Shown: positions 8,401 through 13,981 of the stretch, piece by piece
Position numbering within the stretch: the first letter of the stretch is position 1
Layout: every line of letters starts with the position of its first letter
Origin: Patiria pectinifera
Taxonomy: Eukaryota > Echinodermata > Asteroidea > Valvatida > Asterinidae
Direction: 5' to 3'
NCBI GenBank assembly: GCA_029964075.1
Contig: CM057135.1
Location: 29,067,366-29,131,365, forward strand
DNA: 64,000 nucleotides
Notes under the pieces: model-generated
Told to the model about the DNA's origin: nothing
Database searches by the model: none
Seen by the model: the letters and a program-made list of their open reading frames with translations, nothing else
Translations under genes and position numbers: made by a program

Positions 8401-9007
8401 CTCTTCTGTTTATTTCAAGTTCGTTCCCTTGAGATGAGTTAACATGATCTTGTTTTTATCCGTTTCCCTATCTTGTCTAATTCACCCGCATGTACAACCT
8501 CGAGCGTCGGAAGGTTCCTATTAATGATGTTGGTGATGATTAGAACAGTGAAGAAACAAAACCTCAAACAACGTGCATTACCGCAAATGAAGACTGCTGT
8601 ATTCGACAGTGGATCCGAATTAAGCACATCTAAATTTGCGCATCTGAAGTGTACGTCGAACAAAAATGTTTTGGATAATACATGTACTGTACATGTACTG
8701 GATATCCATTAAGTATGCCACCCTAAATCTCCACAGAAACAAAATGAATTGAACGGAAGTTTCGGAAAGGTTCCCTGTTGTGTCAAAATGAAGATACAAA
8801 TGGATGGTTACCAATTTTTTTTTAAGGGGGGGGGGGGGTGGTTTTGATGTAACCTCTCTTGACGCGGAACTTTTTTTTTGTGGCTGATGGAAGCATATCT
8901 AGGAAGCAAATAGTCCACAGTAATTACTACAGACGTTATCATGTTGCGGCCATCTTGATTTGCTTGCCATTCAAATCAACGTAGCCAAAGCGAGGCTGGA
9001 AGGAAAA
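8401..9007. other. intergenic stretch
   Basis: No gene is supported. It contains a poly-T/poly-G tract near 8,815-8,840 like those inside the GGATCC-ended elements, so a decayed copy may be present. Confidence 0.4.
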
Positions 9008-9236
9008 CTAGCAGTGGCGGTTCTACGGGGCGCGGGGGGGGGGGGGGGCGGAAAACCCCCCCCAAAAAAAAAATTCCATAAAAAAAATGCACTAGCAAAA
9101 TGCGCTCCCCATTGAAAATATGGCTTGAGCCCCCCCTCCCCCCCCCCTCGATTTTCGGAGGCCTCATTGTCTGGAGAAAATAACCGGTCTACATTTCAGC
9201 ACGCCTCCCTGAAAAAATCCTGGATCCACCCTGCTA
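9008..9236. mobile_element. short TIR element with CTAGCAG..GG(A)TCC ends
   Basis: The left end CTAGCAGTGGCGGTTCTA and the right end CTGGATCCACCCTGCTAG are imperfect inverted repeats. The interior is poly-G, poly-C and poly-A tracts as in the elements at 519-839 and 30,913-30,991. The ends resemble the hAT-like family but are diverged. CTAG at both edges may be part of the TIR or of the duplication. Confidence 0.5.
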
Positions 9237-9559
9237 GCCCTGTATAGTCCGTGGGACGAGGCCTTTTTTTCGCTCGTTACGCGATCTGGTTTTCCGAATT
9301 TTTTCTAATATTTCTCATTCTATTTATCAAAAATAGAAAGCGCTAACAAACCATGTTCCCGCATTCGTGGGTGGTTTGGGACTTCACAAATGAATTTTAA
9401 TTAACATCAAATTCGAGGTTACAGCCAAAATATCGTTAGACAAATATAACGCCCGAGAGAGGATAAAAATCAACCAATAACGTGCAAGGTTTGTGTTGCG
9501 TCGCCAAAGAACCAATCAAATTGCACGTTCTATATACGTCGACAAGAGGCGAATCCAAC

Positions 9560-12055
9560 ATGGCGTCGTCCATGTCGTCGGAAGCAAGTACCGAGTCCGA
9601 GACCGCAGCGGAGACAGAAGGTGAAAATGCTCCAAAATCATCAGTTCAGTGTCTCATGCACTTTCCGACTGGAAAGGGTGAAGTGCAGTTATTTACGGAG
9701 CACAGCTGGTCACGTTTCCTTGAGTATACCGACGTCTGGAAGGCCTTCACAAAAGGACCGCAAGCCGAGATAGCAAGGGCCAAGCCAAGGCAGTTCATCG
9801 CCAAAACATGCGCCACGTCAGCCGGCGCAAGTGTTGCTACGGATCAGCATGATCAGCCCGTCAGTATGCGGTCACGATCCTAGAGAATGCCGGTCATCAT
9901 CGGTGAGATACAAATCGTACACTTCCCTTCACTTCGAGATTGTGTAATATAAATGTCTAGTAAAAAAGTTACAACGCCACGTTCACGGGTCTAGTCCATG
10001 ACCAGATGACTTGACTATTTTATGATCATGATGATCGAGATAAAATAAGGGCAAGGGCATTAAGGGGGGGGGGGGCTCTGAAAATTCATGGCATAGGGGG
10101 GCCTGCATGCACAGTACGTGTAGATTTTTATGCCTTCCTAAAACTACTAAAGCCCCTGTCATCATGGTCATACTACGTGGAGCCTCCTTTGCGTATCCTA
10201 ATTCCTTATGAGTTCCTTGTCAAAATTTTTCAATACGCAGCCGTACGCTCAAAACGTCAATTTTTTTTGGATTACTTTGACTTATGTGCGACGCACATGT
10301 AGCGTACAAGTAACGAATTCAGCCCATCCATTGCGTATGAGACGCGTATGTGTTGCGTATGCAGTGCACAACGTTATTTTTTGGGCTGCGAATAGGTCAG
10401 TATGCAGTGCGCATGCCGAGCGTATTCCGGACGCACCCGACTTATGCCGACCGCATGCTTGACGCACTTCTGAGCGTATTCCCGCCATATTTCCGCCGCT
10501 CGCCGTCCAGCGTGCGTTGCATCTGCGCTGCAAGTACGCTATGTATAGGTCCAATACAGGCGGCTCATATGCAGACGGGGTGCGTCACGAACACATAGCG
10601 TACTCATAACGCACTCGACCGATGCAGGACCGATGCGCTGCGTATTTATAACTTATGACCTGCGTAACAGCGTATGCAGCGTAGTTTTGTGCATGCCCAA
10701 AACTATCCTGTGTACTGGGCCGTACCATGCGTATATATGCGTACATAAAACCTACACAAAACGATAGAGATGCATATGAGGTGCGTATTGTGCGTACGAC
10801 TGCGTATGAAAAAAATGTCAATGCGCAACTCATAAGGAATTAGGATACGCAGAAGTGTGACAGGGCCCTTAAATGCAGTCAGTGATTGTGTATAAACGTT
10901 AGTGAACATGTTCTGATGTTAGTACCTTGCAATTGTGTAGTCATGGTAGGCCTATTGGTCATGTTGGTACTATGTAAATGTAAACCTCCACATTTTCTTT
11001 CTGTATAGGTCATGCTACAGTCAGTACACTGACAAGTCCAAGGTGAAGAGAGCAGTTCAAGCCCAGCAAAAAGAGAAGTCTAAAGTTGCAGGTACATTTT
11101 ATTTGTATAGAAACTGCTGCTTCCATTTCTATTCATTAACAAATTTGGTAACCTTCATGAAAAAAAAAAACTGCAGGGGGAGGATGGTGTGATAAACTTA
11201 TACAAGTATATTTGTGAGGTGCTGTTGATAATCTCCCTCCCCAGTATTTATCTGATGTCTGTAACTAAGTTACACTGGAAAACTGTTGTCATATAGTTCA
11301 GTTCACCCAGTGTCCATGTGAAATGTATTTTGTTTACGAAAAGACAGTCCAAAGAGTTTAATGTATCTTTTGAAAGCTATAAAAACGCAATGTACGTGTA
11401 ACGTAGGAAGGAAAGGGAGTCCACCTGGGCTAGTGTACCATCCACAAATATATACATGGCCATGTACATGCACTTGTGTATACCAGTATTAGGCCCAAGA
11501 ACTGATAACTTTCTTTCCATTTATTTGTAATTTCAAAGAAGGGGAAAGTTTTAATGTATACTGTTGTTTACCCTCCCCAACCGACACCCCCCCCCCAAAG
11601 ATAATCTCACAAATTTAAGGAAGAAACATGACATATACCCTCCTGATTTTGTTTCTTTGAGAGCAACACAACATTTTCATTGAAAAAAATGGCCTTATTT
11701 CAATAAATACAACCAAATAAATGTTAATTACATGTAAACAGTTGAATAAGATTGTATTTTCTGTTTCTCTACTGTATTCTAGAAACTGAAACAGCCAAAA
11801 AGGTTCCCCACCCCCCTATGAAAACGAGAAGACTCCGCTCAGCCACGCAAACGGTTTCCAAGACTGCAGCAAGATCACAACATGTTTTTCCCAAACAGTG
11901 CATCCTTTGCAGGAAGGAGAAGTGTGTGACCTGCCGAGTCACAAGGAAGAGGGGCAAGAACCCTGGTCACATGTACTACCCTACAGGCTGAAAGATTGCT
12001 ACAGGCGGCGGAAGACAACAACAATGAAGAACTTCTTATGCACATTGTCAAATCC
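9560..12055 (+). pseudogene. spliced Cys/His-rich hypothetical gene with two frame breaks
   Basis: Inferred exons are 9560-9902, 11009-11091 and 11783 to about 12,055, with GT-AG borders. Exon 1 opens in CAACATGGCG context and encodes an acidic Ser/Glu-rich start, then SWSRFLEYTDVWKAF. Its frame ends in a stop at 9881-9883, but a second frame carries SARQYAVTILENAGHHR up to the donor and joins in phase to exon 2 (SCYSQYTDKSKVKRAVQ). The joined GHHRSCY is a Cys/His motif. Exon 3 continues in phase with CILCRKEKCVTC and stops at 11,989, whereas another frame from about 11,960 reads TCTTLQAERLLQAAEDNN and seems to be the real continuation. Two frame breaks suggest a decayed gene; sequence errors are the alternative. 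The pattern resembles multicopy Cys/His proteins of invertebrate genomes that I cannot name. Function unknown. Confidence 0.5.
10151..10869. mobile_element. 719-bp Harbinger-like MITE, GCGTAT-rich, TAA TSD
   Basis: The outer ends are AGCCCCTGTCA (10151) and TGACAGGGCCCT (to 10869). A second inner inverted block, GCGTATCCTAATTCCTTATG, occurs at 10,191-10,210 and as its reverse complement near 10,830-10,853. TAA flanks both sides (10148-10150 and 10870-10872), the duplication expected for PIF/Harbinger. The interior is packed with GCGTA/TACGC-type motifs in both orientations. It lies inside intron 1 of the Cys/His gene; without it that intron would be about 385 bp. Confidence 0.7.
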
Positions 12056-13245
12056 AAAATGGATGTGCTCAGAATTGTTTCAGTGCATTTGTGTAATTGC
12101 TCTTATTGTTTCTTGTATTTGACACTTATACATGTACTGTAATTGCAGAAATTCAACTGAGGAAGTGCCATTGCATTGGTGTGGTCAGAATAATTGATAT
12201 CTGTGAAAACACATTTGTGTTTGTTTACAAACTGGCATTTAGAAAACTTATTTTTGTTTTAATTTCTTTTTCATGAAGGCTGTTAACCAAATTGGCAAAA
12301 AGATACATGTAACACTGCATAAGGTGTGTTTGAAGTTGTATTAAACCCTTATGAATGTTTGATGTGGTGTATATTGGGATTTGGGGAATGGATAGGGCCA
12401 AAAAGGAAATAATTGGTTGTATCGTAATTTAAAACAGAAGTTCAAGAAACAAATGTATACTAGATGGTTTTGAATCTAAGTTTTTACTTAAAGTGGAATG
12501 CCTGCACACCTTAAACAACTTTTGTAAAGTTATCTGCTACTGGAAGCTGTTCTTTTGGGGCTCTTTCTTCTGGGGAGGATCTTTGTCATTTAATTTGGAA
12601 TACATGAACTCATCCTGTTTGAGGTACCTGCCGTCTTTACTCAAATTGTTCATTCAAGAAAACAACACTAACTGATTAAGATTTTTCCATCTGTGTATTT
12701 CTTTTGGCTGAATGCAGTATGTCATGTACAGCACATCCAAGTTGGAATAAAAAAAGTTATAGAAACAGTATTTGGATCGTATTTGTTATTTATTGTTTCA
12801 AATCGTTCTTATCAAATTTAATCTAAATTTAAATCAATTTAAGTATGACACCTGCCCCATTTTAATGATGATCATGCGTTTCAGCTAACTAGCAGCCATT
12901 TAGAGAAGATTGACTGATTTACAGTTTTTGTGGGATATCATAACGAAGCAACTTGCAAGTTCTGGGGCTCATGGGTTTTACACATTCTTTCATAAAGGCT
13001 TGTCATTTACAAGATATTTTATAATATAAGGAACTCCCTGGTTATTTCAAATTTAATTTAACTGTAATAAGCATCTTGCTTTAGAAATAATTACAAATAA
13101 AAAGGCTAGAATCTAACATTAAACAAATGTTCAGCAAGACGGGCGAACCCGCCTCGCGCGCGCATGCATTGCGTGTAACATGTATATTTGCTGTGTCAAA
13201 AGAGGGCGCTATTTCTTTCTTTTTTCTCATGCGCAATTCGTGCGT
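12056..13245 (+). other. 3' part of the TIR-bounded element, no coding exon seen
   Basis: AT-rich sequence with GGAATAAAAAAAG near 12,744 as a possible poly(A) signal for the Cys/His transcript. No further exon of that gene and no transposase-like frame was recognised. Confidence 0.4.
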
Positions 13246-13698
13246 GTTTTTGTCGTAGAATTTCTCATTCCCAAACAATTCGTGGACCGGGGAACAACGT
13301 TTTTCTGATATGGTACACCATAATCTACATATCTGGCAAGTTTTATAAAATTCGGTGAACCAGATCGCCTATCTCGAAAACTAAAGCGTTTTCGGGCTCT
13401 CGTCCCACGGACTTACTGTGTGTGGCTGGACTGCACATGAGGTGCCCGGCTTATACTCCGCCGGTGTTGAATGCGCTTTTAATACCGTTACACCGTGCAG
13501 TACTTGTTATGGAGATTGCTGTACGCACAAAGAGTGTCGTATTGTTGAATATTGACAATAACACCACACAATTCAAGGACGCACCCTGGTCGTACCCAGC
13601 ACTGTCGCACAAAATCCTGCCCGGATAATGTTTTGTCATTGCTATGCTGGAGCCGGTTTGGTCAAATTCAGTGTTCAGTTGCCTGATCTGTAGTAATC

Positions 13699-13756
13699 AT
13701 GGACGCGATAACTCGCGCGGAGTACACGCCCGTCCCACCTTATTTTGCTGCATCAG
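13699..13756 (+). CDS. possible first coding exon of the SLC13 gene (20-residue extension)
   Basis: ATG at 13699 opens 19 codons (MDAITRAEYTPVPPYFAAS) ending with one spare G before a strong donor, CAG|GTACGT. The 3' splice site at 19,007-19,009 leaves two bases (AG) before the ATG at 19,012, so the phases fit (G+AG = Glu) and the frame continues into the SLC13 protein. The proline-rich character matches the start of that protein. A fit by chance has odds of about one in three. The alternative is an unrelated orphan exon, with SLC13 starting at 19,012. Confidence 0.35.
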
Positions 13757-13981
13757 GTACGTAGGTTGTTAAAATGGGGTGGGACAAGAAAGGAACGATC
13801 AACCTATTTCACCATACCTCTCTGTAATCCAGAACAAACTCTGCTCGGGGTCTCGGAAATATCGATTTTTGTCTATTCTTCCAATCCGTGAGGGGCCCCA
13901 GTACTTCGGTGCTGGATGGAGTACCTATTGTTCACCAAGGGCGTCTGCTCAATCGCTTTTCAAGAAGTGGGTGGGGACAGG

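Follow-up and report, generated by a model that had tools for sequence, protein, structure and literature searches.

Interrupted exons of a Cys/His transposase-like gene in a probably non-autonomous, recently amplified 4.2-kb DNA transposon of Patiria pectinifera

The window analysed here, i.e. the whole stretch of 64,000 nucleotides at C7:29067366-29131365 of the Patiria pectinifera genome (contig CM057135.1, here C7), contains a unit of about 4.2 kb that is bounded by inverted repeats and encloses three exons with similarity to the first two domains, both rich in cysteine and histidine (Cys/His), of a large transposase-like protein. A first-pass annotation, made from the letters alone, had placed diverged inverted repeats with ends at 9246 and 13413 around a spliced Cys/His gene and had proposed that this gene is the cargo or the protein of a DNA transposon with an unrecognised transposase. 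The features of the unit, as we now define it, are collected in Table 1.

Table 1. Coordinates of the features of the unit within the window.
Feature	Position	Strand	Basis or remark
Complete copy, ~4.1-4.2 kb, of a probably non-autonomous DNA transposon	9245..13414	+	Borders common to 20/20 other paired units, each with a perfect 3-bp target-site duplication (TSD)
Left target site GTA	9242..9244	.	Right flank is ACT after the end base, i.e. no intact TSD
5' terminal inverted repeat TAGTCCGTGGGACGAG	9245..9260	+	325 exact genome copies, reversed control 0
Sub-terminal part of the inverted repeat	9261..9448	+	Matches to the 3' end are patchy and extend to about 13183
Exon 1, first Cys/His domain of the transposase-like protein	9560..9902	+	Alignment to loci L076 and L077; domain match in 21/21 units
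Inverted-repeat insert in intron 1, resembling a miniature inverted-repeat transposable element (MITE)	10190..10851	.	41-nt arms, 83% complementary
Exon 2 (SCYSQYTDKSKVKRA...)	11009..11091	+	AG and GT at the borders; contiguous with exon 1 in L076 and L077
Exon 3, start of the second Cys/His domain (CILC)	11783..11991	+	81-codon open frame in the window copy instead of 132
3' terminal inverted repeat	13399..13414	-	Last base T in the window copy, A in the other 20 fetched

The inverted ends and their collinear inner blocks were confirmed. The word AGTCCGTGGGACGAG at 9246-9260 recurs as its exact reverse complement at 13399-13413, and the inner blocks at 9263-9302 and 13347-13386 are 75% complementary. 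Within 8800-13900 there are two non-simple exact 15-nt inverted matches, namely this terminal pair and the internal hairpin at 10190-10851, compared with a mean of 0.02 in 200 local shuffles of the same stretch. The self-alignment of the two ends that the first-pass annotation had proposed extended over about 204/232 bp with a score of 78; the scores were 76-80 in the three copies that were aligned end to end, and the maximum in 200 base shuffles of locus L031 was 57. The true end bases lie one position outside 9246 and 13413, with a T at 9245 and a T at 13414 where 20/20 other units have A. The description of the repeats as diverged is appropriate for their inner part, where similarity is patchy, but not for the termini, which form a perfect repeat of 16 bp.

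We searched the genome (613,548,705 bases in 1,020 contigs) with each end separately. The best 40 of 921 candidates obtained with the 5' end were 97-100% identical to the query and the best 40 of 424 obtained with the 3' end 98-100%; 36 of the 40 scored 5' matches begin at query positions 44-46, the border base being 46, and 32 of the 40 scored 3' matches stop exactly at query position 514, which corresponds to 13413. Both ends were present at 22 loci among the matches listed. Twenty of these, chosen as pairs, were fetched and make up, together with the window copy, the set of 21 units used below. All 20 start with TAGTCCGTGGGACGAG and finish with its reverse complement, and all 20 are flanked by perfect 3-bp TSDs (ATA, AGT, CTA, TAC etc.). 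The window copy is the sole exception, since GTA on its left faces ACT on its right, which could be explained by a 2-bp loss at the 3' junction. Given these flanks and the 3-bp duplications of the other copies, the pair CTGTA/CTGTG, which had been suggested as target duplication, is ruled out.

The exact 16-mer occurs 163 times in forward and 162 times in reverse orientation, while its reversed control was found in neither (0 + 0). For the first 100 of these 325 termini (contigs C1 to part of C7) we examined how they pair: 66 of them make 33 convergent pairs under 50 kb and 34 are unpaired. The pairs comprise six of 1.0-2.5 kb, 17 of 4.0-4.25 kb, six of 4.4-7.6 kb and four above 20 kb, one of which (45.6 kb) may be spurious. 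An exon-3 match is enclosed by 27 of the 33 pairs among the matches listed. The six pairs of 1.0-2.5 kb without such a match (C1:7783207-7784213, C2:17812339-17814028, C3:17065932-17067449, C4:1706854-1708893, C4:2456144-2458647 and C5:10179420-10181279) are likely shorter, MITE-like offshoots. Ends dispersed independently as an ordinary repeat without the gene between them, the outcome that the first-pass annotation had named as incompatible with its proposal, were thus not seen in this sample. Pairwise divergence among 19 aligned units, a set that leaves out L020 and L025 owing to their large inserts, has a mean of 0.87% (range 0.12-1.37%), which marks a recent burst of the family.

Longer copies were considered as possible autonomous versions. 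The 8.2-kb copy L020 was rejected, because a reverse-transcriptase sequence (RVT_1, E 4.5e-39) has been inserted into it on the opposite strand, and so was the 5.4-kb copy L025, the extra length of which is an insert. At C2:15695540-15727708, a copy spanning 32 kb has exact termini on both sides, and its exons lie about 30 kb apart.

Splicing of the enclosed gene is supported by the relatives L076 and L077, because the window junction matches contiguous coding sequence in both. Across the junction of exons 1 and 2 the window reads ...NAGHHR|SCYSQYTDKSKVKRA (by eye, and in a frame that differs from that of the exon 1 start), and the corresponding coding sequence is GGFHRKCYQYFTD in L076 and AGFHRQCYAHFTD in L077; all three exons have GT/AG borders, and the AG and GT bases flanking exon 2 are constant across the variant table of the 21 copies. 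Exon 3 has a C-x-x-C motif and 23 invariant columns in common with L075, L076 and L077. Exon 3 does not preserve the DCVA..YH-x-S-C stretch of these relatives as such: one Cys still aligns, with a His shifted by one place. In a Pfam scan of both Cys/His domains, no model scored above its cut-off.

The reading frame of this gene is broken. The frame of exon 1 is closed by a stop codon upstream of the donor GT at 9903 in 21/21 copies, and therefore the progenitor was probably already broken; in the window copy, exon 3 additionally carries a frameshift. Exon 3 was compared across 30 fetched loci; these had been selected as the top protein matches, and such a selection is biased towards open frames. 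Sixteen of the 51 distinct changes are synonymous, compared with an expected share of 26% (p 0.43). Exon 3 shows no significant constraint, and we see no sign that the window-type gene is alive. The insert in intron 1 is about 660 bp long and rich in TGCGTA/TACGCA words. Most of it aligns in other units, although L019 is without a part of it and L025 is split there, and hence it was probably present in the progenitor.

How much of the large protein remains in the family was assessed with tblastn searches of the 21 units. L076 matched with its first Cys/His domain in 21/21 and L077 with its second domain also in 21/21, the latter only at query positions 30-109 of 384, while the core of L076, comprising 617 amino acids (aa), was found in 0/21 at E 0.01. 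Across the genome, matches of the 4-kb family to the L077 query are confined to about positions 21-130; copies that extend to position 130 may retain a larger part of the second domain than is left in the window copy. At other loci the second domain and the core occur together. A single stop-free open frame of 1,357 aa at C7:25253804-25257118 contains L077 query positions 45-381 of 384 and core positions 9-616 of 617. At C21:35808177-35811173, a stop-free frame of 1,235 aa contains the L077 query from position 104 on together with the core, and query positions 12-103 are located in a separate open frame just upstream. In the genome-wide search, the core query gave 77 matches (best 71 of 176 candidates scored). 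A further locus, L075 (C21:2869500-2875500), has the second Cys/His domain in an open frame of 177 aa, with no core match in the area among the matches listed, and may be either a decayed element or a domain taken over by the host.

Among protein families, the core of L076 aligned to DUF6589 (PF20231) with E 0.0014 over positions 126-324 of 410, at 17.8 bits against a curated cut-off of 27; the DUF6589 profile itself matches this genome 82 times at E <= 1. Sequence searches of the PDB were empty or returned chance-level matches only, NCBIfam gave no match, and a search of the literature library for the name DUF6589 returned no paper. A pattern search of viral contigs yielded a single matching stretch, and no relative is encoded in any of them.

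One relative that holds both Cys/His domains and the core, at C22:24949324-24957012 (7,689 bp), sits in an element of the same build as the window unit. A search with L076:1-1500 placed the 5' border of this element at L076:825, where the sequence reads TAGACCGTCGGGCGTC. A paralogue on C19 carries the same flank without the element (...cacagtcTATgtatttt), and the right side of this empty site puts the 3' border near 24957005, where the end reads ...gccctACAGTCTA|TATgtatttt. The ends of the C22 element are of the form TAGAC(C/T)GT(C/A)GGGC and its TSD is TAT. We preferred this TSD over a 9-bp duplication of ACAGTCTAT, a word present on both sides, because the 3-bp reading fits the empty site exactly, whereas under the longer one two bases at the 3' junction would be left over. 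Copies at C22:23.78 Mb and on C891 share flanks on both sides with the C22 element, so that segmental duplication seems a better account of them than independent insertion. The terminal 16 bases of the C22 element match those of the window unit at 11/16 (5') and 10/16 (3') positions (P 3e-4 and 2e-3, respectively, at 25% per base). Relatives thus do show, as the first-pass annotation had expected of intact ones, the kind of element that carries this Cys/His family.

Collectively, these data make it very probable that the unit is a non-autonomous, internally deleted cut-and-paste DNA transposon that retains a leftover N-terminal part of a transposase and is mobilised in trans. No intact transposase is encoded in it, as seen from the stop in exon 1 and the missing core, and the exon pieces scanned with Pfam likewise contained no transposase. 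We propose that the termini (TAGTCCGTGGGACGAG, with 3-bp TSD) would be mobilised by a transposase encoded elsewhere, and that the Cys/His gene would represent what is left of a transposase of that kind, namely its N-terminal part with the two Cys/His domains, after the large core and everything downstream of it had been lost from the unit. The Cys/His domains presumably bind zinc and DNA, and a full-length protein of this kind would be predicted to bind the ends and to cut and paste them. The large protein would accordingly be the candidate catalytic transposase, acting in trans on window-type ends. This proposal links a recurrent Cys/His family, which lacks a Pfam match above cut-off, to a transposon anatomy of ends, 3-bp duplication and empty site; it makes gene predictions built from such exons recognisable as transposase debris, and it offers a starting point, in a family that was active recently, for finding the autonomous partner.

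Several observations weigh against this interpretation. The catalytic identity of the core rests on the DUF6589 match, which is below the curated cut-off, and the AlphaFold single-sequence model of the core is unusable, with a mean pLDDT (predicted local distance difference test) of 40. No copy was identified that combines exactly the window termini with the full gene, and the activity of the family is a prediction from sequence. The open stretches of L076 are separated by frame breaks, so the C22 copy is not intact, and its ends differ from those of the window unit at 5/16 (5') and 6/16 (3') bases. According to a passage in PMC4455052, Repbase assigns a non-autonomous element to a superfamily if the TSD lengths are equal and terminal positions 1-11 contain no more than 1 mismatch; the window and C22 ends agree in TSD length and have 2 (5') and 3 (3') mismatches in these positions, one and two over that limit. 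Finally, an open frame of about 132 codons persists in exon 3 of many copies, and across the 30 loci, selected as described above, the 51 distinct changes include no stop where about two would be expected. Together with the constant splice bases, these last two findings also favour a different explanation, namely that the element is autonomous or that a Cys/His protein, e.g. a DNA-binding accessory or repressor, has been kept from the spliced gene. We regard this as improbable, since exon 1 is interrupted before the donor in every copy compared, the synonymous share of exon-3 changes is indistinguishable from the neutral expectation in loci chosen for an open frame, and the DCVA..YHxSC stretch is not preserved intact in exon 3, as described above.

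A further possibility is that the Cys/His gene came from the host and was taken up by a DNA transposon unrelated to it; cargo was one of the two readings in the first-pass annotation, and the unit itself shows no recognisable core of a transposase. The same two Cys/His domains, however, head large genes in this genome, one of which lies inside the C22 element with its TAGAC-type ends and 3-bp TSD. We set the cargo reading aside as highly unlikely, given that the exons correspond to N-terminal domains of an element-type protein; of the original proposal, the DNA transposon with a once spliced Cys/His gene stands, but the gene, which is interrupted in the 21 copies examined, does not look like cargo. 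An equally remote candidate for the true partner is a DUF6589 gene situated between exon 1 and exon 3 in two long copies of 31.7 and 21.9 kb (C6:14856908-14888576 and C6:15325992-15347879), both of which have exact window-type termini and same-strand DUF6589 matches, with open frames of 1,112 and 663 aa. In these copies, however, the gene sits between the exons rather than after exon 3, as would fit a nested insertion in an intron, a larger relative being the other reading of the two copies, and since both are on one contig they may belong to a duplicated segment. Deletion of the core from a transposase gene and mobilisation in trans remains our preferred explanation.

We compared the family with known superfamilies of DNA transposons. 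Proteins of the Academ superfamily are long and Cys-rich, and those of AcademX carry an XPG nuclease. The combination of a 3-bp TSD with a long protein points to a probable, though unproven, place of the family in Academ (AcademX); an XPG domain was not detected. A passage in PMC10045372 gives a TSD of 3 or 4 bp for AcademX and mentions a nuclease. A 3-bp TSD is present in both the window family and the C22 relative (TAT, with empty site), whereas the 4.1-kb unit itself differs from AcademX in being without the catalytic part. The XPG_N profile (PF00752) has 20 matches in the genome, none of them on C22, where the C-terminal part of the gene is unread. Six open frames of 714-727 aa with an XPG_N match lie on one strand within about 48 kb at C13:18209603-18258079; one of them has a stop inside the match, and no core match was found there among the matches listed. 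With DUF6589, the L076 core shares a weak alignment; it differs in scoring under the curated cut-off of this domain, the function of which is unknown.

Target duplications of 3 bp, as in the window family, are also ascribed to EnSpm/CACTA and PIF/Harbinger elements in passages of PMC12730594. EnSpm/CACTA was nevertheless rejected, as the termini are TAG..CTA and not CAC..GTG, and PIF/Harbinger was rejected for want of a match to a Harbinger-type DDE (Asp-Asp-Glu) transposase; the Pfam scan of the pieces matched the transposase of neither superfamily. Kolobok, for which a passage in PMC9587614 gives a TTAA target duplication, was rejected as well, because the window family has varied 3-bp duplications. 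It is conceivable, though rather unlikely, that the two-Cys/His-domain protein with its weak relationship to DUF6589, TAG..CTA ends and 3-bp TSD represents a transposase lineage outside the catalogued superfamilies, with the window family as its non-autonomous offshoot. In non-autonomous deletion derivatives such as Ds-type elements and MITEs, the ends are retained together with a portion of the parent gene, whose catalytic part is gone, and amplification occurs in trans. The window unit would share these traits, and nothing of principle sets it apart from such derivatives.

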